A stretch of 63,178 nt of DNA. Origin: Alistipes senegalensis. GTDB taxonomy: Bacteria > Bacteroidota > Bacteroidia > Bacteroidales > Rikenellaceae. The translations under genes were made by a program, and so were the position numbers. The notes under the pieces were generated by a model. The model saw only the letters and a list, made by a program, of their open reading frames with translations. It searched no databases and had not been told where the DNA came from. The stretch is from contig JAMPGH010000001.1 in NCBI GenBank assembly GCA_023664045.1, positions 1,179,021 to 1,242,198 of the forward strand, given 5' to 3'. Numbering within the stretch: position 1 is the stretch's first letter; every line of letters starts with the position of its first letter. Shown here piece by piece: positions 30,421 to 44,453 of this stretch.

Positions 30421-30468
30421 AATCCGTAATCCGTCTATCTTGCGCCCGACGGGAAAGCACTACTTTTG
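30421..30468 (+). promoter_or_regulatory. Promoter and putative AraC operator of the SDR-flavodoxin pair
   Basis: TTG at 30440-30442, 18 nt, TACTTTTG at 30461-30468. Immediately upstream (30421-30438) is AATCCGTAATCCGTCTAT. It resembles two sites upstream of the carboxymuconolactone-decarboxylase-like gene (33073-33091 and 33135-33150), so the AraC protein encoded at 32081-32980 may control both units. Confidence 0.6.
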
Positions 30469-30496
30469 CATCGGGAACAAGATAAAATCTACGGAG

Positions 30497-31342
30497 ATGA
30501 TCCATACCGCAAAACAAGTAATGATTCTTACCGGAGCCGGTCGGATCGGCACGGCGATCGCCCGCCGCATGGGCTATGGAATGAAGATCGTCATCGGCGA
30601 TAAAAGTCTGAAAAATGCCGAATCTGTTGCCGAGTCGATGAACCGGGCGGGATTCGACGCCGTGGCGCGGGAGACGGATATTTCGTCGAGCGAATCCATT
30701 CTCGCTATGATTTCCGAAGCGCAAACATACGGCGAAATCGCGATGTTGGTCAATGCCGCAGGCGTATCGCCCAGCCAGGCATCCGTCGAAACCATCTTGA
30801 AAGTCGACCTTTACGGTACGGCCGTATTGCTCGAAGAGGTGGGCAAGGCCATCGCTCCCGGAGGAACGGGCGTGACGATTTCCAGCCAGTCGGGGCACCG
30901 CATGCCTGCCCTGACGGCAGACGAGGACCGCCTGCTGGCTACCGCTCCGACCGAAGAGCTGCTGTCGCTCGATATGTTGCAACCGCAGAACATCCGCGAC
31001 ACGCTGCACGCCTACCAGTTGGCCAAGCGTTGCAACGTGAAGCGCGTGATGGCCGAGGCCGTAAAATGGGGCCAACGCGGCGCTCGCATCAACTCCATAT
31101 CGCCGGGCATCATCGTTACGCCGCTGGCCTTGGACGAGTTCAACGGCCCGCGGGGCGATTTCTACAAGAACATGTTTGCCAAGTGTCCGGCCGGGCGTCC
31201 CGGCACGGCCGACGAAGTGGCTAATGTAGCCGAACTGCTGATGCGTCCGCAGGGAGCGTTCATTACCGGAGCGGACTTTTTGGTGGACGGCGGCGCCACA
31301 GCCTCCTATTTCTATGGACCTTTGAACCCTGAAACCCGATAG
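30497..31342 (+). CDS. Short-chain dehydrogenase/reductase
   Basis: A 281-residue NAD(P)-dependent SDR without a signal peptide, so cytoplasmic. The nucleotide-binding motif is LTGAGRIGTA (residues ~10-19), NAAG follows around 92, the catalytic Ser is in ISSQSGH (around 129), and the YxxxK motif is AYQLAKR (around 173). The C-terminal region ADFLVDGGATASYF is typical. The ATG at 30497 is preceded by ACGGAG; a longer frame reaches into the promoter and is rejected. Seven nt after its stop codon is a secreted flavodoxin gene. The substrate is unknown. Confidence 0.88.
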   Translation: MIHTAKQVMILTGAGRIGTAIARRMGYGMKIVIGDKSLKNAESVAESMNRAGFDAVARETDISSSESILAMISEAQTYGEIAMLVNAAGVSPSQASVETILKVDLYGTAVLLEEVGKAIAPGGTGVTISSQSGHRMPALTADEDRLLATAPTEELLSLDMLQPQNIRDTLHAYQLAKRCNVKRVMAEAVKWGQRGARINSISPGIIVTPLALDEFNGPRGDFYKNMFAKCPAGRPGTADEVANVAELLMRPQGAFITGADFLVDGGATASYFYGPLNPETR

Positions 31343-31349
31343 AACAACC

Positions 31350-31985
31350 ATGAAAACCATTTTCTCCATGCTCGGGCTTTTGGTGCTGGCCTTTTCGCCG
31401 GCGACCCTGCATGCCCGAAACAGCGAACCGAAAACCGATTCCATGCAAAACACCGAAATGAAAACAGACAAGAAAGTATTGGTGGTGTTTTTCTCCCGCA
31501 CGGGCGAGAACTACGCAGTGGGCGACATCACGAAGGGAAACACCCACATCGTGGCCGAGATGATCGCCGAGGCGACGAGTGGCCGACTCTTCGAGATCGT
31601 ACCCGAAAAGGCATATCCCGAGACTTATCAGGAGTGCGTCGAGATCGCCAAGCAGGAAAAGGAGCGCAGCGCACGTCCGGCTATCAAGGGCGACATCGCC
31701 GTCGAAGACTACGACGTCGTGTTCATTGGCTACCCCAATTGGTGGGGCGATATGCCGATGGCGGTCTATACGTTCCTCGAAAAGCACGACTGGCAGGGCA
31801 AGACCATTCTGCCGTTCTGCACCCACGAAGGCAGCGGACTGTCAGGCACCGAGCACCGCATCACCGATGCCTGCAAGGGCGCTACCGTGGGTAAAGGCCT
31901 TGCCGTGCGCGGCGCCACCGCCCAGAACAAACGGGACGAAGCCAAAAAGGCGGTACAAGCATGGATCGAGAAAGCAGACTTTTGA
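31350..31985 (+). CDS. Exported flavodoxin-family protein
   Basis: A 211-residue protein with a Sec signal peptide (hydrophobic FSMLGLLVLAFSPATLHA, residues ~5-22), a short linker, and a flavodoxin_4-type domain: KVLVVFFSRTGENYAVG (phosphate loop), GNTHIVAEMIAEAT, IGYPNWWGDMPMAVYTFLE, TILPFCTHEGSG. Flavodoxins bind FMN and usually act in the cytoplasm, so export is unusual. It is in an operon with the SDR and converges on the AraC gene, with a shared hairpin between them. Its electron partner is not identified. Confidence 0.87.
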   Translation: MKTIFSMLGLLVLAFSPATLHARNSEPKTDSMQNTEMKTDKKVLVVFFSRTGENYAVGDITKGNTHIVAEMIAEATSGRLFEIVPEKAYPETYQECVEIAKQEKERSARPAIKGDIAVEDYDVVFIGYPNWWGDMPMAVYTFLEKHDWQGKTILPFCTHEGSGLSGTEHRITDACKGATVGKGLAVRGATAQNKRDEAKKAVQAWIEKADF

Positions 31986-32026
31986 TTTGCAGCGGTCGAG
32001 TCGACCCTGTAACATCCGCATAATTG

Positions 32027-32057
32027 GAGAAAGGAGGCGAAATTCGTCTCCTTTCTC
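32027..32057. terminator. Bidirectional hairpin between flavodoxin and AraC genes
   Basis: A 14-15-bp inverted repeat of GAGAAAGGAG / CTCCTTTCTC type lies between two convergent genes. It would serve both strands, although U-tracts are weak. Confidence 0.6.
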
Positions 32058-32080
32058 GTAATAGCCTATCCGGACGATGC

Positions 32081-32980
32081 TCAACTTGCCTGCATCCGAT
32101 AATTGTTGGGCGTCATGCCCACCACCTTTTTGAATACGCGGCTCAGGTGATGCGGATAGTTGAATCCTAATTCATAGGCGATTTCGCTGATGGTCTTATC
32201 GGTTTCCGTCAGCAACTCTTTCGCTTTCGACATCACCGTGAGCCGGATATATTCCTGCGCCGATTTGCCGGTCTCTTTTTTAATCAAGTCGCCGAAGTAG
32301 TTGGGCGACAGACACACCTTGTCGGCGCAATACTGCACGGAGGGCAACCCTTCGGTTTTCGGCCGCTCCGATTCGAAATAGTCGCGCAGGATCTCCTCGA
32401 ACCGGTCGAGCACGCTGCGGTTGCTCACCTCGCGTGTGACGAACTGACGTTCGTAGAAGCGCACGCAATGGTTGAGCAGCGTCTCGATGTTGGAAGCGAC
32501 GATCTGTTTGGTATGCTTGTCGATGGCGTGTTCCAGCTCCTCGCGGATTTCATGGAAGCAGTTGAGGATGATTGCCTTCTCGCGTTCGGACATGTGCAGC
32601 GCCTCGTCGCATGAGTAGGAGAAGAACGAGTAGTCCTTCATGCGCCGGGCGAGCGGCGTTCCGTAGAGCAGGTCGGGGTGGAACATCAGCACCAGCCCTT
32701 TCGGGTTGAGCGTCTCGCCGTCGTCATCCACGCCCGCCACCTGTCCCGGGGAAATGAAAAGCATCGTACCCTCCTGATAGTCGTATTTGCTGCGGCCGTA
32801 CTGAATCGTTCCGCACTCCAGCTCCTTGAAGAATACGCAATAGAATCCGAAGTTCTTGCGGCAGTGCCGAATCGATTTGAGCGTCGAGAGGTCGGTAACG
32901 CTGACCAACGGATGCAGCGTCTCGGCTCCCAGCAACCTATTATAGTCCTGTACGCTTTCTAAGCGGATGATATTTTCCAT
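32081..32980 (-). CDS. AraC-family transcriptional regulator
   Basis: A 299-residue regulator. The N-terminal half is cupin-like (ECGTIQYGRSKYDYQEGTML around 75, then FISPGQVAGVDDDG). The C-terminal ~100 residues hold two HTH motifs, with the signature region SEIAYELGFNYPHHLSRVFK followed by MTPNNYR. I chose MENIIRLESV at 32980 over an upstream ATG at 33040 because homologous proteins begin near there and the extra stretch is leader-like. It sits between the two redox transcription units and is divergent from the second. The likely inducer is a small molecule sensed by the cupin part; it is unknown. Confidence 0.9.
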   Translation of the reverse strand: MENIIRLESVQDYNRLLGAETLHPLVSVTDLSTLKSIRHCRKNFGFYCVFFKELECGTIQYGRSKYDYQEGTMLFISPGQVAGVDDDGETLNPKGLVLMFHPDLLYGTPLARRMKDYSFFSYSCDEALHMSEREKAIILNCFHEIREELEHAIDKHTKQIVASNIETLLNHCVRFYERQFVTREVSNRSVLDRFEEILRDYFESERPKTEGLPSVQYCADKVCLSPNYFGDLIKKETGKSAQEYIRLTVMSKAKELLTETDKTISEIAYELGFNYPHHLSRVFKKVVGMTPNNYRMQAS

Positions 32981-33072
32981 ATTGTTTCGTTTGTTGTTAC
33001 CGACGTCAAAGATAGGGATAAAAGACGAGATGCGAACCATGCGTCCGACGGTTTCCGTAATAAGGGTTATTC

Positions 33073-33182
33073 AATCTGTAATTCGTGTTATAACGATGAT
33101 ATACAGAGAAAAGAATCCGTAAAAACGGTTATCCCATCCGTAATTCATGTGCCTATGGTTTGATGGCGGGATCGTAATTTTG
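33073..33182 (+). promoter_or_regulatory. AraC-CMD intergenic region: two direct repeats and -7 element
   Basis: AATCTGTAATTCGTGTTAT (33073-33091) and CATCCGTAATTCATGT (33135-33150) share the core ATCYGTAATTCRTGT on the same strand, about 61 bp apart. TAATTTTG at 33175-33182 is a good -7 element, but no TTTG lies at the proper distance. That fits an activator-dependent promoter with the proximal site next to the -33 region. Confidence 0.6.
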
Positions 33183-33230
33183 CAAAGTCGAAAAAGACGA
33201 AATGTAGAACCCTTAAAATAAAGAATCATT

Positions 33231-33935
33231 ATGAAGCATACGAAAATCATCGGACGCACCGCCCTCTGGATTATGGGCACCGTTATGACACTTTCCGTGT
33301 CGGCACAGTCTCCCAGCGGACTGGATGCCAAAGAACAGGCCGTGGCCGCAATCGCCGCCTTCACGGCGCGGGGCGACATGGAGCGTTTGGCCGCCGAATG
33401 CGAAGCCGGACTCGACGCCGGTCTGACCGTCAACGAAATCAAGGAGGTGTTGGTGCAGATGTACGCCTACTGCGGTTTTCCGCGCTCTTTGAATGCGCTC
33501 AACAGTTTCATGACGACGGTCGAGCGGCGCAAGGCGGCAGGCAAGCAGGATGCCATCGGCCGCGAGGCTTCGCCGATCGCCGAGGGGACGGATATGTACG
33601 AAGCGGGCGAACGGGTACGCACTGCGCTGGTCGGCCGTCCCGTGACGGGTAAGGTATATGAGTTCTGCCCCGTCATTGACGAATACCTGCGCTCCCACCT
33701 GTTCGGCGACATTTTCGCCCGCGACAACCTCAGCCATGCCTACCGTGAACTGGCTACCGTAGGCGCATTGGCGGGCATGAACCTGGCGGGGCAGTTGCGC
33801 TCGCACCTCTCCATCTGCCGCAACATCGGCTTCACGGAGGAGCAGCTCCGCGACTTCGGGTCGCTCGTCGCCCGCAAAATCGGCGACGAAGAGGGACAAA
33901 CCGTCAATCGGGTACTCGACGAGATTTACAAATGA
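33231..33935 (+). CDS. Exported carboxymuconolactone decarboxylase-like protein
   Basis: A 234-residue protein with a Sec signal peptide (IIGRTALWIMGTVMTLSVSA, cleavage before Gln). It has two CMD/AhpD-like helical repeats: GLTVNEIKEVLVQMYAYCGF with a single Cys, then NLSHAYRELATVGALAGMN in the second. Classical AhpD uses a CxxC pair, which is absent here, so peroxidase activity of that type is unlikely. It is the first gene of a five-gene run with cupin, hydrolase, flavodoxin and a broken reductase. The role may be binding or isomerising a small lactone or quinone; this is inferred from family and context only. Confidence 0.86.
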   Translation: MKHTKIIGRTALWIMGTVMTLSVSAQSPSGLDAKEQAVAAIAAFTARGDMERLAAECEAGLDAGLTVNEIKEVLVQMYAYCGFPRSLNALNSFMTTVERRKAAGKQDAIGREASPIAEGTDMYEAGERVRTALVGRPVTGKVYEFCPVIDEYLRSHLFGDIFARDNLSHAYRELATVGALAGMNLAGQLRSHLSICRNIGFTEEQLRDFGSLVARKIGDEEGQTVNRVLDEIYK

Positions 33936-33962
33936 TTTTTGAATTTAACTAAGATAAATCCT

Positions 33963-34466
33963 ATGAACAAGTTTATCATCTTTTCAATCATGGCTATCAT
34001 GACGACTTCGTGCGGCAACGCATCGCACGACAAAAAGAACGACCGGAATACGACGGAGGCAATCACTGTTACGGACGTATTCGCCAAAGGGACACTGCTG
34101 CAAAACAATCCGAACTTCACGGGCGACGCCTGGCTGCAAACCTTCGTCACGGCCGCCGATTCGATGGACTGCACGGTGGGCAACGTGACTTTCGCACCCG
34201 GCGTGCGCAACAGCTGGCATTCGCACCCCGGCGGACAAATTCTGCTCTGCACCACGGGCAAGGGACTCTATCAGGAGCAGGGAAAGGCAATTCGTGTGCT
34301 CCGCCCGGGCGACGTGGTGAAAATCGCTCCCAACGTAATCCACTGGCATGGAGCGGCACCCGACAGCGAGTTCACGCATATCGCCATCGGAACGCAGACG
34401 AGCAAGGGCGGAGCCGAATGGTACGCCCCCGTGACCGATGAAGAGTACGGCAATCACATCGAATAA
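33963..34466 (+). CDS. Cupin-domain lipoprotein
   Basis: A 167-residue protein with a lipobox (AIMTTSCGN, Cys near residue 17). The cupin metal motif is visible: [20 protein letters not shown] then [16 protein letters not shown], giving the usual His/His/Gln/His ligand set. Starting at ATG 33963 places the signal sequence at the N-terminus; the longer frame from 33939 is rejected. It starts 27 nt after the CMD-like gene. Many CMD-cupin pairs occur in bacteria, some fused, which supports a joint function. Confidence 0.88.
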
Positions 34467-34485
34467 ACATAAAAAGTATAACACC

Positions 34486-35571
34486 ATGAAAAAAGCATTT
34501 ATCATGACACTTTGTACACTTGCCGTGTCCGCCGCAGGCATGGCGCAGACCGACGGACAGGTTCCGTTCACGAATGCGGAAGTCAAAAGCCACAATAGTA
34601 ACCCGTGGGGGCTGGTCTATGACCATGCCCTGACGGAAAACATCGAGGGACAGGTGAACATCCACCCGATTACCTATAATCTCGGCGGGTTGAAAATCGC
34701 CGCCAACGTCTATACGCCCGCCGGCTACGACCCTGAGAAAAGCTATCCGGCACTCGTCGTGGCGCACCCCAATGGCGGCGTGAAGGAGCAGGTATCGGGT
34801 TATTACAGCCAGTTGATGGCCGAGCGCGGTTACATCTGTCTGGCATTCGATGCCGCCTATCAGGGAGCCAGCGAGGGCCAGCCGCGCCAGACCGACAAGC
34901 CCGCCAACCGTATCGAGGACATCCGCCGTGCCGCCGACATCTTGGCCCGATACCCCGGTGTAGACCCGCAGCGCATGGGTATTCTCGGCATCTGCGGCGG
35001 AGGCGGCTATACGCTGGCTGCGGCACAGACCGACAAACGGTTCAAGGCGGTAGCCACACTCAGCATGTTCAACTCGGGACTGGTGCGCCGCAACGGATTC
35101 CTCGATACGCAAATCAACTCTGTGCAGGAGCGTCTTGCCGACGCCTGTGCCGCCCGCCAGCGGGAGGCCGATACGGGCACGCCCGAATATGTGGGCGATA
35201 TGAGCGGTGTGACGCCCGAACAGGCTGCGAAACTGCCGTTCGACCTCTATCGCGACGGCTACGACTATTACATCCGCACCTACGCCCATCCCAACTCGAC
35301 GTTCCGCTATACCAAAAGCAGCCTCGTGGACTTGATGGCGTTCGATGCTTCTGCGGATATGTATCTTATCAGCCAACCGCTTCTGATGATTGCCGGCAGC
35401 ATCGCCGATACGTTCTACATGACCGAGCAGTGTTACAGCCGTGCGACCGGCACGCAAGACAAGGAGCTGTTCCTCATCCCCGGCGCCACGCACATCAAGA
35501 CCTATTACGTGCCGGAGTACGTAGAGCAGGTAACGAACAAACTCACGGAATTTTTCGGAAACAAATTATAA
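34486..35571 (+). CDS. Exported alpha/beta hydrolase with Cys nucleophile elbow
   Basis: A 361-residue protein with a Sec signal peptide ([16 protein letters not shown]). The nucleophile elbow reads [12 protein letters not shown] (around residue 168), so the nucleophile is Cys, as in dienelactone hydrolases. Other family segments are [20 protein letters not shown] and [10 protein letters not shown] (oxyanion and lid area). The acid is probably the Asp in the AGSIADT region near residue 308, with the His in [10 protein letters not shown] near 338. The start at 34486 follows the cupin stop codon by 19 nt. The substrate is unknown; a lactone or ester would suit the neighbours. Confidence 0.87.
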
Positions 35572-35588
35572 TCAGCGATTCGCACGAT

Positions 35589-36230
35589 ATGAAAAAGTAT
35601 TTGATTTATCTGATGATGGCTGCGGCCGTCGTGGCATTCGGGGCTTGCTCGCCCGAAGATGAAAATGAACCTCAAACACCGGGAACGGAAATCCCGGATA
35701 CACCCGATGACGGCGACACGGATAATCCTGAAAATCCGGGTACGCCCGACATTCCCGTCGGCGACGGCAAAATTCTGGTCGCCTATTTCTCGTGGGGCAG
35801 CACGACGCAGCGCATGGCGCAGGAGATTGTCCGTCAGACCGGAGCCGACGTGTTCCGCATCGAACCGGTCGTGTCTTATCCTACTGAATATACTCCTTGT
35901 ACCGAAGTGGCACGCGAAGAACGCGACAACGATGCCCGGCCGGCCATCAAGGCGACGGTTGAGAATTGGGAGGACTACGACATGGTGTTCATCGGCTGCC
36001 CCGTGTGGTGGCACACCGCACCGATGATTATCTCGACCTTCGCCGAGAGCTACGATTTCGCGGGCAAGACCGTCGTGCCGTTCTGCACCTATGCCGCAAC
36101 CTACCGGGACGAAACGTTGCAGAAAATCGTCGACCTGACGCCCGCGGCCGAACATCTCTACGGTTTCGGATCGACGGGCAGCACCTCCGGCGTAGAGAAC
36201 TGGCTGCGCGGGATCGGCATGGTCGAATAG
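35589..36230 (+). CDS. Flavodoxin-family lipoprotein
   Basis: A 213-residue lipoprotein. The lipobox is VVAFGAC (Cys ~19), followed by a ~35-residue Pro/Asp/Glu/Thr-rich linker. The flavodoxin domain then starts KILVAYFSWGSTTQRMAQEI and continues with DMVFIGCPVWWHTAPMIIST and TVVPFCTYAATY. It is related to, but not the same as, the flavodoxin at 31350-31985. An acylated, linker-tethered flavodoxin would sit on the outer face of a membrane. It starts 17 nt after the hydrolase gene. Confidence 0.88.
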   Translation: MKKYLIYLMMAAAVVAFGACSPEDENEPQTPGTEIPDTPDDGDTDNPENPGTPDIPVGDGKILVAYFSWGSTTQRMAQEIVRQTGADVFRIEPVVSYPTEYTPCTEVAREERDNDARPAIKATVENWEDYDMVFIGCPVWWHTAPMIISTFAESYDFAGKTVVPFCTYAATYRDETLQKIVDLTPAAEHLYGFGSTGSTSGVENWLRGIGMVE

Positions 36231-36257
36231 TATTACTTATCGAAACAGAAAGGAAAT

Positions 36258-36963
36258 ATGCGACCGAAAGTCATCTGCCATATCATGGGCTCCGTAGACG
36301 GACGCCTGATGAACAAACGTTGGACCCCGCCGTGCGACGGACGCCCCCAAAGCGATCTGCTTGCCGTATATGCCGGAATCGGCAAGGAGCTGGGAACCTC
36401 CGCTTGGATGTTCGGGCTCAATACGGCACGGGCCTTCTTCCCGGACATTTACCGCCCGGCAGATGGCATTCCCGCCCACGCATCCGAGACGTTCTGCGCT
36501 CCCGAAATTTCGGAACGCCGGTTCGTCGTTTCCGATCCGGACGGTACGATCCGCTACGACAAGAACACGGTACGGGGTGATGGCATCATCGCACTGCTGG
36601 GACGGCGGGTGTCGGAGGATTACCTCCGGCATCTGCGCTCGGCGGGGATCTCCTATACCTTTGCCGGAGACGACGGATGCGACCTGCGCGAAGCACTCGA
36701 AAGCCTCCACGACCGTTTCGGCATTACGTCTTTGTCCTTGCAGCATCATCAACGGGGCATTCCTGAAAGCCGGACTGCTCGACGAACTGAGTCTGGTCGT
36801 ATATCCGGGTATCGACGGACTGGCGGGCGTGCCCTCGATTTTCGAATGTCCCGGCATGCCGGACGAACGTCCCGCAACGGGGCAAAGTCTGGAATTAGTG
36901 TCCGTGCGACAAATGCCTTACGGGGTCGTATGGTTGAGGTATCGAATACTGAAATCCATATGA
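36258..36963 (+). pseudogene. Frameshifted RibD/dihydrofolate-reductase-like protein
   Basis: The frame from 36258 (MRPKVICHIMGSVDGRLMNK) follows the RibD C-terminal / DHFR-like family up to FGITSLSL near 36740. The conserved continuation IINGAFLKAGLLDELSLVVY...PYGVVWLRYRI is in another frame, ending with the TGA at 36961-36963. The join lacks the glycine-rich EGGG segment expected just before IING, and the shift fits loss of 8 nt (or 2, 5 or 11). That segment helps bind NADPH, so both frame and function are affected. The remaining sequence is well preserved, so the lesion is probably recent, unless it is a sequencing error. Confidence 0.75.
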
Positions 36964-37027
36964 TGCACCGCGCAGTATATTTGTACCGGAAATGCGCACA
37001 GTCCAGATTCCATAACCAAAATTATAA

Positions 37028-37873
37028 ATGACAGAATTTATCCGCACACTCGAAAAGGATGTCGAGAAGAAACTGAAAAAGATAGAGGGTTCTGATTTGA
37101 ATATCTTGAAGAAGTCGTTGGAGGCATCGCTCGTTCTGGGCGATGCCTTTCAGCGAATGCGGGATTTCGTTGCTACCTACACATTCAAGAACGAAGCCGA
37201 AGAGATCGAGTTTTTCAAAACGGTCAAACCTCGGTTGTATCATCGGTTGATCTATTATCGCAAGGTCTACAACATCGAGATGAATCGTCCCGTTGGCATA
37301 GATTCTCAACGGGCTTATTTGAACGACGAGTTGGTAGCTATCAACCGATACAACAATAAGCGCTCCGATTTCATTCACTACTACCGTTCGGGACTTACCC
37401 ATCTGGATTCGCTCTACTATCTGCGCGGCCGGGCCGATACGGCTCTTTATCTCGAATCTTTCCATTACGAGCGCGATCCGAAGTTCTCGACCAATGCCGA
37501 TTTCAAGGTGGCGAAGTTGTTGGCCAATGAAATGCTGTCGGTCTATCTGAAAGGCGAATTGGAAGCACTGGAATATGTAAGACACAAAACCTCCGACGAT
37601 TCGCTACCTGCTGTCCGACTGACGTGGCAGGACAGCAAAACGGATTTGACAGAATTGATTTACATGCTCGACAGCAAGCGGAGTTTCGGTAATGTTCCGC
37701 TCACGCAGTTGGCGGCTTATATCGCTAACGTTTTCAACATCCAGATCGATACGAACCTTTCGCGCACGTTCTGCGATATGAAATTGCGCAACAATCCCAC
37801 TCCGTGGATCGACAAGGCGAAACAGACCCTGCTGCAACGGATGCAGACATGGAGGCCGAAGAACAAGAAATAA
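37028..37873 (+). CDS. rteC: RteC-family protein
   Basis: A 281-residue protein matching RteC of Bacteroides conjugative transposons such as CTnDOT, where RteC activates the excision operon under tetracycline induction. Visible family features: FKTVKPRLYHRLIYYRKVYN (around 71), NKRSDFIHYYRSGLTHLDSL, and a C-terminal winged-helix-like region (TDLTELIYMLDSKRSFGNV). A -7 element TATATTTG is at 36976-36983. No tetQ or rteAB is present, so its input is unknown; it may control the two small HTH genes nearby. Confidence 0.87.
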   Translation: MTEFIRTLEKDVEKKLKKIEGSDLNILKKSLEASLVLGDAFQRMRDFVATYTFKNEAEEIEFFKTVKPRLYHRLIYYRKVYNIEMNRPVGIDSQRAYLNDELVAINRYNNKRSDFIHYYRSGLTHLDSLYYLRGRADTALYLESFHYERDPKFSTNADFKVAKLLANEMLSVYLKGELEALEYVRHKTSDDSLPAVRLTWQDSKTDLTELIYMLDSKRSFGNVPLTQLAAYIANVFNIQIDTNLSRTFCDMKLRNNPTPWIDKAKQTLLQRMQTWRPKNKK

Positions 37874-37882
37874 CGGGAAAGA

Positions 37883-38290
37883 TTACCATCGTTCTCTGAA
37901 CTCTTCGCAAAGCGCAATGATCCGTTGCCCGACCACAGCCAGTTCGCGCGTTTCATTCTCCAATTTGTAGAGCATAGCGAGTGCTTTTCGCTCCGAGAAA
38001 TGGGTGTGCAGCAGCTTCACGATCTGGTTATAGTTCGTTCCTATGGCTCGGAATTGAGCGTGGAACTGCGTCAGCTTGGCTACGTATTCCATCGTTCCGC
38101 GATCGGTTTTAATTACACGGAACACGTCGCCGAAGACCCGCGCTTTGATAAAAGCTGCCGATTGCTCGTACATCATCAGAAATCGGGCGTGTTCCTCTGC
38201 CGAAAGATTGACCGAATACCGGTATTTGGCCGTGTCGATTTTTGGTGGCCGACCGCCTTTTCCCCTGCGGGGCGATTTATACTTTTCCAT
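37883..38290 (-). CDS. MobA/MobC-type relaxosome accessory protein
   Basis: A 135-residue protein beginning MEKYKSPRRGKGGRPPKIDT, with a ribbon-helix-helix-like region (KYRYSVNLSAEEHARFLMMY) and the C-terminal pattern AQFRAIGTNYNQIVKLL, common to mobilization accessory proteins of Bacteroides elements. These usually precede a relaxase gene, but here the stop codon is 9 nt from the convergent rteC end, so the relaxase and coupling-protein genes are missing. A longer upstream frame is rejected as non-coding. Confidence 0.8.
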   Translation of the reverse strand: MEKYKSPRRGKGGRPPKIDTAKYRYSVNLSAEEHARFLMMYEQSAAFIKARVFGDVFRVIKTDRGTMEYVAKLTQFHAQFRAIGTNYNQIVKLLHTHFSERKALAMLYKLENETRELAVVGQRIIALCEEFRERW

Positions 38291-38559
38291 ACATCGAGAT
38301 TTTTCAGTCGTGAATATTTCGATTCTTTCGTGGCGGAGCCGCCTATCGAAAAGCGCCGACTTCGGAGGTGCTTTCCCCCCCCCTGTGGGCAAGCTGTTCT
38401 CCGATGCAAAAAACTTTTTGTGCAGCAGAAAACACAGCTTGCTGTTTGCCTTTTGCAAACATGTCCGTCCGCCCGTCGGACGAGCTATTGAACAAGCCGC
38501 CGTAAAAACGGGCAAGGCGGCTTCAATCCACGTCGGAATCGTTTTACGGAGCAAAGATA

Positions 38560-38880
38560 CTGACCTATTCAACAATCTGCACAACAGTTGATTGCGCCAC
38601 TCGATACCACTTCGATGCCACAAGTGACCATAAATTCATAATGCAAGGATAAAGGTAGGATAGTTCGGCAGTCGTATGTCAGGTCGGATGATTGTAATGT
38701 CGATTGATCGTATGTCTGACTGCGCAAATACACGATCAACTGTACGAGTAGTTGCCTGCCCATATGTATAGTTGGCCCAATGATCATACAGTCATACGTA
38801 TGGTTGTATGGCCAGTTAGCCGGATGAATGGATAATCGACTGTTTACGCAACAGTATGCTTGCATGCCAGCATCCGATGA
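38560..38880. other. Low-complexity intergenic region upstream of the mob gene, possible oriT
   Basis: The 1.1-kb gap from 38291 to 39428 has no convincing gene. Its 38660-38830 part is full of short related words (CGTATG, CATAC, CATATG, TGATCATAC, GTATGGTTGTATGG) in both orientations. Similar low-complexity stretches occur next to mobilization genes in Bacteroides elements, where oriT lies. The 38884-39400 part carries an open frame of 168 codons without family resemblance, which I do not call. Confidence 0.35.
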
Positions 38881-39428
38881 CCTGCCCTTGTTATGCCAAG
38901 TGGAAGGGTGGAGGATTTCTGTTTCCGTTTATTTTTCTCTGTGCTTCTCATAACCTTCGACTTTTTTTTATATGCCGTAGCGGAGCCGGTATGGATGGAA
39001 TCTGTTTCAGTAGCTTCAAAGGTTCGGGATTCGCTCACGACAAGATTTTTGCGGGAAATACGCTTCGACCGCAGGGCGCAAGGAAGATTTTCCGCAAAAC
39101 CGCCCGGCGGCCCGATCTTGCACGAGCGTGAAGCCCGAAAATACCTTTGCTACTGCAACAGGTTCATCCGCTCTATACCGGTTTCGTCGGATGGTAAAAA
39201 GATGGAGGAAAAGGTTATGGAAGAGAAGCTCGGAGAGAAAAAGCAATACCGTGAACGGATGCGGAACGTTCACGGCCAAAGTACGACGCTACCGAACTGC
39301 ATACGGCAAAGCACGGAGCCACGTGCCGCCACTTCGGCGCCACAGGCTACCATAAGCGAATCGAAGTTCATCGGGCAACGTCTATTTGGCTATATTTGAG
39401 CGTCCGGGAAGCAAAAACGAATCAGAAT

Positions 39429-39722
39429 ATGGAAATCGTAAGTATAGATACGCGGATTTTCGACGAGATGATCCGACAGGTGAAATCCGTCGAAGATAAA
39501 GCGGTTTCGCTATACCGCCGACAGGAAGATTTGGGGTTGAAGAAATGGCTGGACAATCAGGAGGTATGCCAGATATTGGGAATATCCGTGCGTACTCTGC
39601 AAACCTATCGGGAAAAAGGGCTGTTGGCGTATAGCTGCATCAAGCACAAAATCTTCTACAAGCCCGAAGATGTAGAGGCCCTTTTGAAATCGTCATATCA
39701 TCAGCAAAATCAAACGAAATGA
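39429..39722 (+). CDS. Small HTH protein (excisionase/MerR-like), first of pair
   Basis: A 97-residue protein with an N-terminal helical part and a C-terminal helix-turn-helix (WLDNQEVCQILGISVRTLQT, residues ~48-67) followed by a wing-like YREKGLLAYSCIKHKIFYKP. This layout matches the helix_turn_helix_17 proteins adjacent to integrases in Bacteroidales elements, some of which act as excision factors (Xis2c/Xis2d type). I chose the ATG at 39429; a -7 element TATATTTG lies at 39391-39398. It overlaps the next gene by ATGA. Confidence 0.83.
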   Translation: MEIVSIDTRIFDEMIRQVKSVEDKAVSLYRRQEDLGLKKWLDNQEVCQILGISVRTLQTYREKGLLAYSCIKHKIFYKPEDVEALLKSSYHQQNQTK

Positions 39723-40030
39723 AAAACTATCTGATGGGGCAGCAAGACCCCTGCATCAAGGATATTCTTCAACGGTTGAAACACACGGACAAGGTGCTCG
39801 ACAGGTTGAGCAAAAGCACCAAGCGGACGTTCAACGGTGAACGGTTCATTTCTGACAGCGAACTGTCCCGTGTATTGAGAATCAGCCGCCGAACATTACA
39901 AGAGTATCGGAGTGCCGGTATACTGCCTTACTACCTTATTTCCGGCAAGGCGCTCTACAAAGAATCCGATGTTCAGCGGATGTTGGAGAGGGCATACCGA
40001 GCGCCTTTCGATAGTCGGAATTTGATGTAA
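39719..40030 (+). CDS. Small HTH protein (excisionase/MerR-like), second of pair
   Basis: A 103-residue protein with the same architecture as its upstream partner: an N-terminal helical part, then FISDSELSRVLRISRRTLQE as the HTH (around residues 43-62), then the wing YRSAGILPYYLISGKALYKE. The two genes overlap by 4 nt and end in a perfect terminator, so they form an operon. By analogy to CTnDOT, where two small proteins in the rteC-controlled operon promote excision, this pair may direct recombination by the integrases at 41.9-44.5 kb. Confidence 0.83.
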   Translation: MKNYLMGQQDPCIKDILQRLKHTDKVLDRLSKSTKRTFNGERFISDSELSRVLRISRRTLQEYRSAGILPYYLISGKALYKESDVQRMLERAYRAPFDSRNLM

Positions 40031-40042
40031 TGGCATATGAAT

Positions 40043-40084
40043 AAAATTAGGAGACAGCTTGAACAACTGTCTCCTAATTTTTTA
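40043..40084 (+). terminator. Terminator of the HTH pair
   Basis: A 15-bp perfect stem AAAATTAGGAGACAG / CTGTCTCCTAATTTT with a 9-nt loop, followed by T-rich sequence. Confidence 0.93.
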
Positions 40085-40178
40085 TTGATTTATGGGGCTG
40101 TATATTCGCAGATTTAGTTTGCAATCAAACAGGTAATAGACATTGAAAGAATACTACATTGTTTTTGGTCGACGAGAG

Positions 40179-40352
40179 CTACATTATTGTTTCGGCTATC
40201 TTGCTTTGGGCCTTCATGTTGGAAGCGAATCCTGCTGAAAGTTCATTGTCGTCGGCTATGACAACCCTTTCTCCATATCCTCTTGCGTGATGTTCAATAC
40301 ATTCGCTGCATATTTTAAGGGCTATACGAATATAGTACTTTATTGGTTTCTT
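40179..40352 (-). pseudogene. Orphan 3' coding remnant without a start codon
   Basis: The minus-strand frame 40352-40179 is open for 57 codons between a TAA and a TAG and reads like real protein (ICSECIEHHARGYGERVV, IADDNELSAGFASNMKAQ, SKIAETIM). It has no ATG, GTG or TTG near its beginning. It lies directly after the stop codon of the 339-residue gene in a different frame. It may be the tail of a deleted gene or a frameshifted extension. I do not recognise a family. Confidence 0.4.
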
Positions 40353-40362
40353 TTAAAGAACA

Positions 40363-41382
40363 TCAGTGATTAAAATTCAGCAGTTTTTTCACTTCAGGGA
40401 TATAGTCTTTCAAGAAGTATTCTCGTACCAAACTATCTCCTGTATAGAACTGCGAAACAAACTCGCTCCATATATCGACAGGGATAATCCCATCCATTCG
40501 AAATAACTTTACAGACTGGGCTTTAATTTGTTTCGACAGCTTATTGTCATAATTCAGATCTAAGTCTTTACGAGCAGCATATTCAACATTATTGTACAAA
40601 TGTATCGCGCCGTCTAAATGCCTGAACGTCTTAGTTTGTGGGTCATATTCTGCATGCACGTATCTTCCGGGATGATATTTGCAACTTTCTACTTCCACCT
40701 GCACATCCTCAGTCATAAAGTCTTCTGCTTTGAATACTCTTATCCCATTGTTATCCGTAGGCCAACAAGGATAAAAAGCGTATATATTGGGATAAAACCA
40801 ATTTCTCAGACCATCTTGCAATGCTACTGGCGGAACAAGTTTAGATACTCCATCTTTGATTTGGTCAATATTTTGATTGAATGGTGCTCCATACCAAGTA
40901 TCTTCTTCAATTATCCAACGATTGTCTGTGTGGACACGCACACGATCCATATCCATAGCAATTTTTACTATGATGTTCGGATTATTCAATTTCCATAGTT
41001 TATGGAGAAACAAAGGGGCAAACACAGCATTATAGCAATATCCTCGTCTGAAATAGTGGTGGGCAAATACCATGTAGTCATCTATCACATAATAACCTTC
41101 CTTAATCGAATATCTCTCACCTAACTCATCCAACTGCGACAACGATACAAGACCATCTTTATCTTGCGTAAGGTCAGGCAATAAAATTTTAATAATATTA
41201 GGATAAGAGGCTGTCACCCCTATGCCATACGAAGGTGCTATTTCAACGTCTATCCCAAATTGTTGCTTGCATCTATTTACAAAACGGTCTGAATCTGGTT
41301 TATATCTACTAAGCTGTTGTTCTTGCTGTCGTTTGATATCTTCCATATAACGTTTCTGTAATTCGTCTATATAATTCATCAT
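40363..41382 (-). CDS. Unrecognised 339-residue protein
   Basis: Starts MMNYIDELQKRYMEDIKRQQ with a charged helical N-terminus, then a globular soluble region rich in aromatic residues (VIDDYMVFAHHYFRRGYCYN around 100; NWFYPNIYAFYPCWPTDNNG around 195; HAEYDPQTKTFRHLDGAIHL around 243). There is no signal peptide, membrane segment or catalytic motif I can name. It is clearly more AT-rich than the rest of the window, suggesting separate acquisition. It is next to the recombinase operon but not overlapping it. In such elements this position often holds cargo, including defence genes; that is only a positional guess. Confidence 0.72.
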   Translation of the reverse strand: MMNYIDELQKRYMEDIKRQQEQQLSRYKPDSDRFVNRCKQQFGIDVEIAPSYGIGVTASYPNIIKILLPDLTQDKDGLVSLSQLDELGERYSIKEGYYVIDDYMVFAHHYFRRGYCYNAVFAPLFLHKLWKLNNPNIIVKIAMDMDRVRVHTDNRWIIEEDTWYGAPFNQNIDQIKDGVSKLVPPVALQDGLRNWFYPNIYAFYPCWPTDNNGIRVFKAEDFMTEDVQVEVESCKYHPGRYVHAEYDPQTKTFRHLDGAIHLYNNVEYAARKDLDLNYDNKLSKQIKAQSVKLFRMDGIIPVDIWSEFVSQFYTGDSLVREYFLKDYIPEVKKLLNFNH

Positions 41383-41515
41383 TTTGCCAATTCATATTAT
41401 AATGCAAAAATAAACAAAATTTCACAGAGATAGTGTGTTGATGCAACTGACAAGTAATGCCCCCAAGCAAATATTAAGACGCCCCTTGAATCCGTCTTTT
41501 CTTTTTGTTCGGTGT

Positions 41516-41875
41516 TCAATTCAGCACTCCGTCGTTTGCCGCAGGTATCTTCCATACAATCGTTGGTTTAGTTGCCCGCTCGATAATCCATTTACGGAAT
41601 ACCTCTGCTTTTTCGGATTTCAGTCGGAATGCCAATGCCGTAATCATTTCAAGGTCATAGCGTTCGACCAGATTTCCGTTTTGGCTGCGGGTGCGGCGGA
41701 AAACACGCTCTTCATCCAGAATGCCGCTTTTGAGGATTGCTCGGATGTTCGCACTTACAGCGGGTGTGAATACGTCGAACAGGTCTGCAATTTGAGCCTG
41801 CGTAAACCAAACGCCGGTTGCACTGGGACGGATCGTTACCTGCCCGTGCTCAATAGTTATAGGTGGAGTTTTCAT
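41516..41875 (-). CDS. RhuM-like small DNA-binding protein
   Basis: A 119-residue protein with VWFTQAQIADLFDVFTPAVS (HTH-like, around 22-41) and QNGNLVERYDLEMITALAFR, a pattern seen in RhuM/Fic-adjacent virulence-type proteins and in small genes linked to Bacteroidales integrases. It is much shorter than full RhuM proteins (~330 residues), so it corresponds to the N-terminal domain only. Its ATG overlaps the integrase stop codon (ATGA), placing it as the third gene of the recombinase operon. A regulatory role in excision or stability is possible. Confidence 0.72.
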   Translation of the reverse strand: MKTPPITIEHGQVTIRPSATGVWFTQAQIADLFDVFTPAVSANIRAILKSGILDEERVFRRTRSQNGNLVERYDLEMITALAFRLKSEKAEVFRKWIIERATKPTIVWKIPAANDGVLN

Positions 41876-43161
41876 AGATGCTTGTGTTTATAGGGTGCTT
41901 GCATTTTTATATTCTGCGGTTCTTCATAAAGTTCGAGTTTGCGGCTGGCAGACAGTTGCCGTAATTGCTTCGTGTCTTCATCTACTTTCTTGTCCGTAAC
42001 ATGGGCATAAATCTGTGTCGTTACGAGCCGTTTGTGTCCCATCATGCGGCTGACGGTTTCGAGCGGTACGCCCAATGAAAGCGTGATGTGCGTTCCGAAA
42101 TTATGCCGCGCCATATGAAAGGTCAGGTCGATGCCGTAAGCCTGCCCCAACTTCTTGGTTAGTTGGATAAGGCGTGCACGACTGTATAGATTGAAAATCT
42201 TGTCGTTCTTTCGTTCGTGTCGGTATTTCTCGATAATCCGCATAGGTATATCCAACAGTCGTATAACCGATTCGGTATCGGTTTTCTGTCGTCGGATATG
42301 TATCCACCATACACCCTCGTCATCTTGCGAGATGTGTTTTGCCGACAACCGTTTCAAGTCGGCATAAGCCAGTCCCGTGAAGGTGGAGAAGATAAACCAA
42401 TCCCGCACCCGTTGCAGTACCAGATCGGCGACTTGTTCGGCAAGCAGACGTTTCAGGTCGTCGAGTTTCAGATGGCGACTTTTGCGTTTGGGTAATTCAG
42501 GATGCAGATTGCAGTAGGGATCACGGCGCAGCGTTCCTTGATTGACCGCCCGCACGGTCATCTTCTTCAACCGATACAAATGTTCGTGCACGGTTTTCTG
42601 GCTCATCTTGCAATCCGTTCGCAGAAACAGGTCGAACGTGTCGTAGAACTCTTGGTCGAGGCTTCGTAATAATATGTCTTCTTGTCCGCATTTCTCCTGC
42701 ACGAACTCCCGCAGATGATTGTAAGACCGAACATAGCACGCATAGGTTTCTTTCGTGCGGTCTATCCCCACTCGTTTGGAAAACTCTTCGTTGTGTTCTC
42801 GAAACAGAACCAGCAGCGTCAGCGGCTTCTGTCCGATGCCCACGGCATTCTTGACCAATTCGGCCGTTACAAAACCTAACGACAAATTGATGCGCTTGTA
42901 ATGCGCCTTGATTTCATCCGTCAGGGCATCTATTGCCCGGTTCACTTCGTTGGCATTGCGGCTGCGCCCGTCGGCACGTCCCGTCGTGGGATTCCAGATA
43001 GCAGGATCGAACGCGACTTTGGTTCCGATTTGTGCCGCCTCGGCGTCAATGCTGACTTTACACAAAAGTTGGCACATGCCGTCCTTGCGGACTTTCGTGC
43101 GATTGATATAGAACAGTATGGCGAATGTACTTCGTCGCCTAATATCTTTATTCTTTTCCAT
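41872..43161 (-). CDS. Tyrosine recombinase, second of pair
   Basis: A 429-residue integrase with an N-terminal arm-binding part, a SAM-like core-binding domain (residues ~110-210), and a catalytic domain. Catalytic residues seen: Lys in RRQKTDTESV, HxxR in HMARHNFGTH, GH in MMGHKRL, and Tyr in TTQIYAHVT. The first catalytic Arg is replaced: FTGLAYADLKRL has Ala where FTGLR is expected, a loss also known for IntDOT of CTnDOT. It overlaps the upstream recombinase stop codon (TGATG). Confidence 0.93.
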   Translation of the reverse strand: MEKNKDIRRRSTFAILFYINRTKVRKDGMCQLLCKVSIDAEAAQIGTKVAFDPAIWNPTTGRADGRSRNANEVNRAIDALTDEIKAHYKRINLSLGFVTAELVKNAVGIGQKPLTLLVLFREHNEEFSKRVGIDRTKETYACYVRSYNHLREFVQEKCGQEDILLRSLDQEFYDTFDLFLRTDCKMSQKTVHEHLYRLKKMTVRAVNQGTLRRDPYCNLHPELPKRKSRHLKLDDLKRLLAEQVADLVLQRVRDWFIFSTFTGLAYADLKRLSAKHISQDDEGVWWIHIRRQKTDTESVIRLLDIPMRIIEKYRHERKNDKIFNLYSRARLIQLTKKLGQAYGIDLTFHMARHNFGTHITLSLGVPLETVSRMMGHKRLVTTQIYAHVTDKKVDEDTKQLRQLSASRKLELYEEPQNIKMQAPYKHKHL

Positions 43162-44453
43162 CAGATTGCAATTGTAAAACGTTGTGAAATTTTCTCGTTG
43201 AGCGACTGCGTGTCGGTTCCGATTTTGTTGTCGGTTACTTGTGCGTATATCTGTGTCGTATCGACACGGCTGTGTCCCAACATCCGGCTGACCGTTTCCA
43301 TCGGCACGCCGTGCGAAAGGGCGATTTCCGTAGCATATGTATGGCGGGCCATGTGGAAGGTCAACTTCCGGTCGATGCCGCAGGCTGCGGCGAGTTGTTT
43401 CAGCCCCTTGTTCAACTCCGAGTTTCCGTACATCGGGAGCAACTTACCGCCCTGCATTGTGTCCCGATATTTGTCGATAATATGCCGCGTCAGGTCGAGC
43501 AGCGGTATCTCGAACTCCACGCCTGTTTTCTCCCGTGTTGCTTTGATCCAAACCGTTCCGTCTTCGGCCGTTTCGAGGTTTTCGACGGTCAGACGGCACA
43601 TGTCGCCGTAGCTGATGCCCGTATAGCAGGAGAACAGAAACAAGTCTCGGACGAGATAAAGCCGCGATGCAGGGAGTGGCGTAGTCATCAGTCGTTTCAG
43701 TTCTTCGCGTGTCAAGTAACGCCTTTTGCGTTCGGGACGCGGCGGCTCGTAACCAGCGAACGGATCGGCGGTGATGATTCCGGCGGCAAAAGCCCTATTG
43801 ATTACCGTATGCAGACGCGACATGTAGAGAACAATAGTGCGCGGAGCAAGTCGCCGTTCGGTACGAAGATATAAATCGAACTTATCTACAAACGACTTGT
43901 CTAATGCGGAGAACGGAATATCTGAAAGCTGCAGCCGCTCCGACAAGAATCGTTCGACATGCTCGTAGGTGCAACGATAGGTGCGTGCCGATTTGGATGT
44001 GCGGTTTATGCCTACTCGCTTTTCGAAATGCTCGATGAACATGCGGAAATAGTCGAGCAACGTCTCTTGTCCGGCAGCCATACCTAACAACAGACACTTG
44101 ATTTCCTCGGCCGTTACCCGTTCACGAACGGCCGACTGCTCGCGGTATATGGCGAGTGCCGAAGCACGATATTCGTCTAATTGGCGGTTGATTGCAACAG
44201 CCTCGGCACTTTTGCCTTTGGCACGACCTGATGACCATAACGATGCGGGAATGGACAGTTTTGCGCTGAACACGCATTCCGACCCTCCGACGGTCAAACG
44301 TCCCATGACAGGACAGCGACCTGCGGCATTCGATTCGTTCACATTCGTGCACCTTTTCTCGCCTCGGCATAGTCCGCCAGCGGCCTCTGCTCTCGGCTTA
44401 CCGAAAACGTTCTTTTTGAGGTAGAACGAGACCTTTACAGCTTCTTGATTCAT
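43161..44453 (-). CDS. Tyrosine recombinase, first of pair
   Basis: A 430-residue integrase of the same architecture as its partner. It has Lys in TREKTGVEFE, HxxR in HMARHTYATE, GH in MLGHSRV and the nucleophile Tyr in TTQIYAQVT. The position of Arg I reads YTGISYGDMCRL, with Ser, exactly as reported for IntDOT. It lies closest to the right attachment site (237 nt away). A 10-bp inverted repeat overlaps its start codon. Having two full recombinases suggests either heterodimeric action or separate integration and excision roles. Confidence 0.93.
   Translation of the reverse strand: MNQEAVKVSFYLKKNVFGKPRAEAAGGLCRGEKRCTNVNESNAAGRCPVMGRLTVGGSECVFSAKLSIPASLWSSGRAKGKSAEAVAINRQLDEYRASALAIYREQSAVRERVTAEEIKCLLLGMAAGQETLLDYFRMFIEHFEKRVGINRTSKSARTYRCTYEHVERFLSERLQLSDIPFSALDKSFVDKFDLYLRTERRLAPRTIVLYMSRLHTVINRAFAAGIITADPFAGYEPPRPERKRRYLTREELKRLMTTPLPASRLYLVRDLFLFSCYTGISYGDMCRLTVENLETAEDGTVWIKATREKTGVEFEIPLLDLTRHIIDKYRDTMQGGKLLPMYGNSELNKGLKQLAAACGIDRKLTFHMARHTYATEIALSHGVPMETVSRMLGHSRVDTTQIYAQVTDNKIGTDTQSLNEKISQRFTIAI

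Follow-up and report, generated by a model that had tools for sequence, protein, structure and literature searches.

Why should a member of the Bacteroidales send two flavodoxins out of its cytoplasm, and on which compound would they and their neighbours act there? The question is raised by seven adjacent genes at positions 30497-36230 of a 63,178-nucleotide stretch of Alistipes senegalensis DNA (GenBank assembly GCA_023664045.1, contig JAMPGH010000001.1, positions 1,179,021 to 1,242,198 of the forward strand; hereafter the window), which belongs to a metagenome-assembled genome (MAG) of 1.97 Mb in 5 contigs with 86% completeness (G000). In order, the set encodes an SDR oxidoreductase, a flavodoxin (FldA), a divergent AraC-family regulator, a CMD-family protein, a cupin, an alpha/beta hydrolase and a second flavodoxin (FldB), followed by a broken RibD_C-like gene. 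Our analysis suggests that the locus may be one AraC-controlled regulon working in two compartments, likeliest on reactive carbonyls or related electrophiles, a reading that we favour while placing its probability a little short of even.

In this proposal, the AraC protein would, on some signal, bind paired half-sites and activate the promoters of SDR-FldA and CMD-cupin-hydrolase-FldB. The SDR would be a cytoplasmic enzyme using NAD(P)H, FldA, CMD and hydrolase would reach the periplasm, and cupin and FldB would be lipoproteins, the latter perhaps located on the cell surface. The flavodoxins would carry electrons outside the cytoplasm, where CMD, metal-cupin and Cys-hydrolase would convert a small reactive compound before its entry into the cytoplasm. 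If this holds, reactive small molecules would meet inducible redox chemistry in gut Bacteroidales ahead of the cytoplasm, with flavodoxins as carriers. The fixed promoter element described below provides a handle by which the regulon can be recognised in Bacteroidales genomes and its inducer and substrate put to the test.

A promoter element shared by two transcription units

Both transcription units are preceded by the element CCGTAATYYRT-N26-TAMTTTTGC, in which an AraC-like box stands at a fixed distance from a -7 box (TAMTTTTGC, which we take to be the Bacteroidetes -7 box). The copies before SDR-FldA (30424..30469, + strand) and before CMD-cupin-hydrolase-FldB (33138..33183, + strand) show no mismatch to the pattern. 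An earlier interpretation of the DNA letters (the sequence-only reading) had proposed that a cytoplasmic SDR may finish the work of the exported proteins; this link was strengthened by the element, and SDR-FldA as an unrelated neighbour was ruled out because the pair carries the same element. The SDR (30497..31342, + strand), a predicted cytoplasmic enzyme matching adh_short_C2, belongs to the PRK06940 type with 456 bits over the NF005395 cut-off of 280. The AraC-family regulator (32081..32980, - strand; HTH_18, 79.7 bits) lies divergently and is the presumed activator of both units. Between AraC and CMD is a direct repeat of 35 bp (33054..33150, + strand; 83% identical, 62 bp apart), presumably the AraC operator, the core of which recurs upstream of the SDR; many loci have a further half-site some 20 bases upstream of the box.

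The 12-mer core TCCGTAATYCRT, a pattern picked after the sites had been seen, occurs in G000 without mismatch at two sites, both at this locus, and with one mismatch 28 times compared with 4 for the reversed pattern. In a scan of 393 Bacteroidales genomes for the full element with one mismatch allowed, 29 genomes yielded 37 sites, including four from which the element had been defined; the reversed pattern yielded 8. When spacers of 20 to 32 were tried, enrichment was seen with 26 only (27 gave 8 and all others 4 or fewer). Twenty regions fetched around element sites, which cover 21 of the 37 sites and were chosen blind to genes (G096:C17 and some genomes being known beforehand), held a redox-family gene in 14 cases, or 15 if a lone FMN reductase is counted. 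Of 20 random control regions requested, 18 existed, and among these redox-family genes were present in one (L240, cupin-hydrolase), itself behind an element with two mismatches.

Relatives of the locus were gathered with FldB as the sole query in one collection, and 78 loci were kept (Bacteroidales, Clostridia and a few others), 30 of which were taken as Bacteroidales by similarity although the records of L025 and L032 bear Clostridia names; L014 and L228 are one and the same contig according to the gene map. With up to 4 mismatches allowed, the element precedes the first gene of the transcription unit in 46 of 86 cases for the redox families compared with 7 of 297 for other genes, a count that omits the 20 element-anchored loci and takes in the random regions and the window. 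Removal of ten defining sites, chosen by the author from a layout comparison, left 36 of 76 against 7 of 297. By family, the element stands before first genes for FldB (17/21), CMD (4/4), FldA (3/4), aldo-keto reductases (AKRs; 8/19), other flavodoxins labelled Fld (3/6), DUF362 (3/8), cupin (2/4), SDR (2/4), hydrolase (2/5), Fe-ADH (1/3), RibD-like (1/4), esterase (0/2) and FMN reductase (0/2), and for AraC in 2 of 28 cases; the reversed pattern precedes none.

Export signals and conserved company

Sec-type starts are present in FldA (31350..31985, + strand; Flavodoxin_4, 87 bits, cut-off 24; N-terminus MKTIFSMLGLLVLAFSPATLHA/RN), in the CMD protein with its two CMD stretches (33231..33935, + strand; CMD family, 81 bits; N-terminus MKHTKIIGRTALWIMGTVMTLSVSA/Q, signal judged by eye) and in the hydrolase (34486..35571, + strand). 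Lipoboxes are found in the cupin (33963..34466, + strand; TTSC) and in FldB (35589..36230, + strand; FGAC; Flavodoxin_4, 114.5 bits, cut-off 24), a short-loop flavodoxin on a Pro/acidic stalk, and no export signal was seen in the SDR. FldA and FldB are the only Flavodoxin_4 matches in G000. Export was judged by eye and by our own simple rule, which flagged FldA, cupin and hydrolase but missed CMD, with its weak hydrophobic core, and FldB, whose called open reading frame (ORF) begins upstream of the FldB ATG. The chance of finding five of seven genes exported, a five that takes in the two judged by eye, is P about 0.014 given a background of 99 flagged among 391 unlabelled genes.

The case for real export rests on conservation, because 86 of 96 genes of these families in the Bacteroidales loci look exported by the rule (FldB 38/39, Fld 12/13, FldA 6/9, hydrolase 18/20, cupin 7/8 and CMD 5/7), compared with 4 of 70 labelled Fe-ADH, RibD/DHFR, SDR or AraC; these counts take in the window's own genes. 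AKRs are mixed (15/53). Among flavodoxins of the 48 other loci, export is predicted for 80 of 98, over a background of 65/373. The rule gives false positives, such as the starts of some flavin reductases, where the signal is unconvincing, and false negatives, such as the window CMD; accidental export calls were ruled out by the family-wide pattern, and the predicted compartment of these families is conserved. After the lipid Cys, FldB reads SPEDENEP and then runs into the stalk, and it is possibly exposed at the cell surface; the cupin reads GNASHDKK, unlike SDDDD, the surface lipoprotein signal proposed for B. fragilis in a passage of PMC5080379.

Much of the sequence-only reading stood up to these results. 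All products that it named were recovered at the positions it gave, the export that it assigned to both flavodoxins, CMD, cupin and hydrolase agrees with the predicted signals and their conservation, and its CMD without CxxC, its Cys-nucleophile hydrolase (elbow GICGGG) and its stalked lipoprotein flavodoxin are all present. Its gene list was correct in products but overlooked the divergent AraC inside the set, and the gene at the end of the set, the RibD_C-like reductase (36258..37031, + strand; likeness seen in relatives), is broken in frame. The frame breaks near 36740, for which decay and assembly error are both possible. Directly after the redox set lies the edge of an integrative element (37028-44453) with RteC, MobC_2, two HTH_17 genes and two tyrosine integrases.

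Around the FldB relatives, genes for hydrolase, RibD-like reductase, AKR, Fe-ADH, CMD, cupin, AraC, SDR and further flavodoxins recur in varying order, and exported AKRs and NapH-like membrane ferredoxins are added in relatives' loci. Conserved co-occurrence, the absence of which would by its own terms have refuted the sequence-only reading, was thus found across Bacteroidales, but not the exact gene order, the parts being shuffled, fused and exchanged between genomes. Fusions comprise seven cupin-CMD ORFs (L032, L034, L132, L134, L142, L216 and L222), hydrolase-CMD (L138), hydrolase-cupin (L147), flavodoxin-AKR (L032) and flavodoxin-esterase in three cases (L033, L038 and L039). CMD is uncommon, with matches at E 0.001 in 8 of 61 relatives, G000 included. 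CMDs on enterobacterial plasmids (L120 7986-8627 and L121 7989-8618) are 51-56% identical to the window CMD, begin at about its residue 31 and hence lack the signal; they stand beside AKR, SDR and quinol monooxygenase genes or beside those for cupin and alcohol dehydrogenase.

The window AraC, hydrolase and FldB genes are 92-94% DNA-identical to their counterparts in L014 (matched to G458:C13), from a genome placed in another family, with ClpX 64% protein-identical to that of G000. The high DNA identity despite such divergent ClpX therefore points to recent transfer of AraC-hydrolase-FldB between the two genomes, with ClpX as the gauge of genome distance to G458 (transketolase gave just a split distant match).

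Electron source, substrate and competing explanations

Candidate membrane donors for the flavodoxins may be seen in relatives as NapH-like polyferredoxins (Bacteroidales) and DUF4405 cytochromes (Clostridia). The gene for a NapH-like membrane protein, which carries ferredoxin domains (seen in scans of L212 and L224; similarity above 770 bits in L015, L213, L225 and L226), comes immediately after the element in L213, L224, L225 and L226 and lies close to it in L212. In five of these six loci (not L015), the NapH-like gene is followed by one for an AKR with an RR-F-type start. The three RR-F-type AKRs scanned all carry 4Fe-4S domains, with a TAT_signal match in L225. In the closely related G423, G263 and G356 (L225, L226 and L263-type loci; G263 not fetched), the element stands directly before genes for the NapH-like protein, an RR-type Fe-S AKR and an exported DUF362 protein. 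EFR1-type flavodoxin-ferredoxins exceed the family cut-off in L132 and L138 and also occur in L015, L028 and L215. Outside the Bacteroidales, DUF4405 was found in 18 and ApbE in 9 of the 48 loci, often as flavodoxin-DUF4405-ApbE; genes for a flavodoxin lipoprotein, DUF4405 and an ApbE lipoprotein are clustered in the Clostridia-type L043, L046, L052, L057, L058, L060, L061, L067 and L068.

These membrane proteins beside exported flavodoxins, together with the Fe-S AKRs and the EFR1-type proteins with RR starts, would also suit extracytoplasmic respiration or electron disposal, in which flavodoxins pass membrane electrons to a gut organic acceptor prepared by hydrolase, CMD and cupin, the purpose being energy and not protection. 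We consider this unlikely, as no such membrane protein was found in G000 and the cytoplasmic Fe-ADH, AKR and RibD-like reductases that share the element are a better fit to detoxification.

The enzymes of the second unit could alternatively form a periplasmic pathway for catabolism of an aromatic compound or lactone, like part of the beta-ketoadipate route, with the flavodoxins as auxiliaries. The CMD protein, whose nearest structures are 4g9q and 2af7, resembles PcaC, the hydrolase shows DLH similarity, and the cupin-CMD, hydrolase-CMD and hydrolase-cupin fusions would be in keeping with such a pathway. However, the PcaC match remains well below the cut-off (62.9 vs 155.7 bits, TIGR02425), no ring-cleaving enzyme was found among the window genes scanned, and the flavodoxins are the most constant members of the set, all of which makes catabolism rather improbable. 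The CxxC pair, which we take to be the hallmark of AhpD-type CMD proteins, is not in the sequence of the window CMD.

The weakest alternative is a loose stress island, whose genes would have a regulator in common and move as a group while serving different compounds in no single chain, as the unconserved gene order, an L014 locus without CMD-cupin, the abutting integrative element and the signs of recent transfer would allow, and which the several kinds of fusion between parts and the strict compartment split make the poorest fit.

We return to the two-compartment regulon acting on electrophiles. Carbonyls or related electrophiles (aldehyde, ketone or lactone) are its likeliest substrates because the same element elsewhere in Bacteroidales drives Fe-ADH of the YqhD type and AKR of the DkgA type; among the best eight hits each, the Fe-ADHs of relatives are 35-37% identical to E. 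coli YqhD and the AKRs about 39% to DkgA. In E. coli, YqhC, the activator of yqhD/dkgA, responds to glyoxal and furfural according to a passage of PMC5297802. By family chemistry and analogy with this system, the substrate might be an electrophile, quinone or lactone, and the electron flow outlined above would serve its conversion.

Several observations weigh against this proposal. The carbonyl reading leans on Fe-ADH and AKR, neither of which is among the window genes, and the window AraC resembles YqhC in the HTH only (29% over 107 aa). A second AraC gene, 71% DNA-identical to that of the window, exists in G000. L014 holds AraC-hydrolase-FldB but not the CMD-cupin stretch between AraC and hydrolase. 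Taken alone and with one mismatch allowed, the core shows no more than a roughly twofold excess in the loci (29 occurrences in 743 kb) over each of two equally long random sequences (16 and 13), and binding by AraC and of FMN is as yet what we infer. Finally, the NapH-like protein, Fer4_5 and DUF4405 were not found in a genome search of the 86% complete G000, and for the EFR1 type the search gave weak matches to the ferredoxin part only; the missing electron donor is the main gap of the proposal. The second AraC gene lies in L140 (G000:C1:1760000-1778000), with degenerate box-like sites around it and DUF362-labelled (lipoprotein-like) and SDR-labelled genes close by.

A more specific and quite doubtful extension is that this undescribed AraC regulon (box-N26-(-7)) builds an electrophile-reducing chain, running from a membrane ferredoxin or other donor through flavodoxins with non-covalent FMN to exported AKRs and CMD/cupin/hydrolase, which would take flavodoxin electrons instead of NADPH. 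In alignment with DkgA, six AKRs that look exported or are fused keep the catalytic tetrad, at what we take to be its positions, while the IPKS....R stretch reads IPG/IPR-type; other AKR families with an IPG/IPR-type stretch bind NADPH. Sec-type signals are found in the AKRs of L032 (7845-9620, fused to a flavodoxin lipoprotein), L016 (6703-7653) and L143 (3714-4688).

Comparison with described systems

The window hydrolase belongs to the fold family of YcjY (5xb6) and PA2218 (2hdw) and shares their Cys and His positions, but differs from both in its signal peptide; its nucleophile elbow conforms to the motif G(I/V)CGGG, which 20 of the 25 hydrolase-labelled proteins carry. The cupin aligns through its metal motif (WHSHPGGQ / HWHGAAP), and over nearly the whole domain, with TM1010 (2f4p) and GtHNL-type cupins (4bif and 4uxa), and their His/Gln motif is present in it, the residues presumably being metal ligands. 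Among labelled cupins, HWHGA occurs in 16 of 16 and the WHSH..GQ pattern in 10 of 16. Unlike TM1010 and GtHNL, the window cupin is a predicted lipoprotein, and it falls below the (R)-mandelonitrile lyase cut-off (132 vs 140 bits, NF049940).

The E. coli YqhC-YqhD-DkgA unit (L250) similarly places an AraC activator beside reductases, and Fe-ADH and AKR carry the element in other Bacteroidales. The window, however, encodes neither, the annotated neighbours of the E. coli unit include no exported flavodoxin, and by sequence comparison the window AraC is not a YqhC orthologue.

The sequence-only reading knew of no described system of this composition. For the gene set this agrees with the open-licence full-text literature searched, in which no account of the regulon or the set was found: a search for exported flavodoxins turned up PMC5898192, which in the part seen concerns a flavodoxin-like archaeal domain and not this regulon, passages of PMC10434189 deal with iron-regulated fldA and gave no description of the set, and CMD and cupin do not appear in the text of PMC12274486 consulted for a glyoxal operon. 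The flavodoxins themselves are less novel, since a 2024 study described extracytosolic members of Flavodoxin_4 that are flavinylated by ApbE and found with DUF4405, and contrasted them with unflavinylated cytosolic members (Huang et al., excerpts of PMC11334425). FldA and FldB resemble that system in their Flavodoxin_4 domain and predicted export, and their relatives in the pairing with a membrane electron carrier. The partners in the window are instead CMD, cupin, hydrolase and SDR under an AraC box; no apbE or DUF4405 is labelled near the set in the window, and DUF4405 was not found in the genome search (apbE elsewhere in the genome was not searched). No ApbE-motif insertion was found between strand 1 and helix 1, the FldB loop being short and the 13-residue FldA loop (RTGENYAVGDITK) having no [S/T]GA[S/T]-like flavinylation motif. 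Exported flavodoxins of this family are already known as flavinylated proteins; FldA and FldB do not have that motif.

When flavodoxins were sorted by the length of this loop and the presence of the motif, 52 of 66 from Bacteroidales and 46 of 98 others looked exported while being short-looped and motif-free; 3 and 15, respectively, combined a long loop with the motif, and 2 and 21 were unclassifiable. In such exported proteins, therefore, FMN would have to be held or replaced outside the cytoplasm without a covalent bond. Structure prediction and fold search, carried out for FldB alone, gave a model with mean pLDDT 81.9 and a disordered stalk, which matches 4ici, 3klb and 4j8p at TM-scores of 0.79-0.83 by target length, and also 3edo, an FMN complex. 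FldB thus appears to share the fold of the B. fragilis flavoprotein 3klb, which binds FMN non-covalently (a passage of PMC11334425), and differs from it as a predicted lipoprotein on a stalk.

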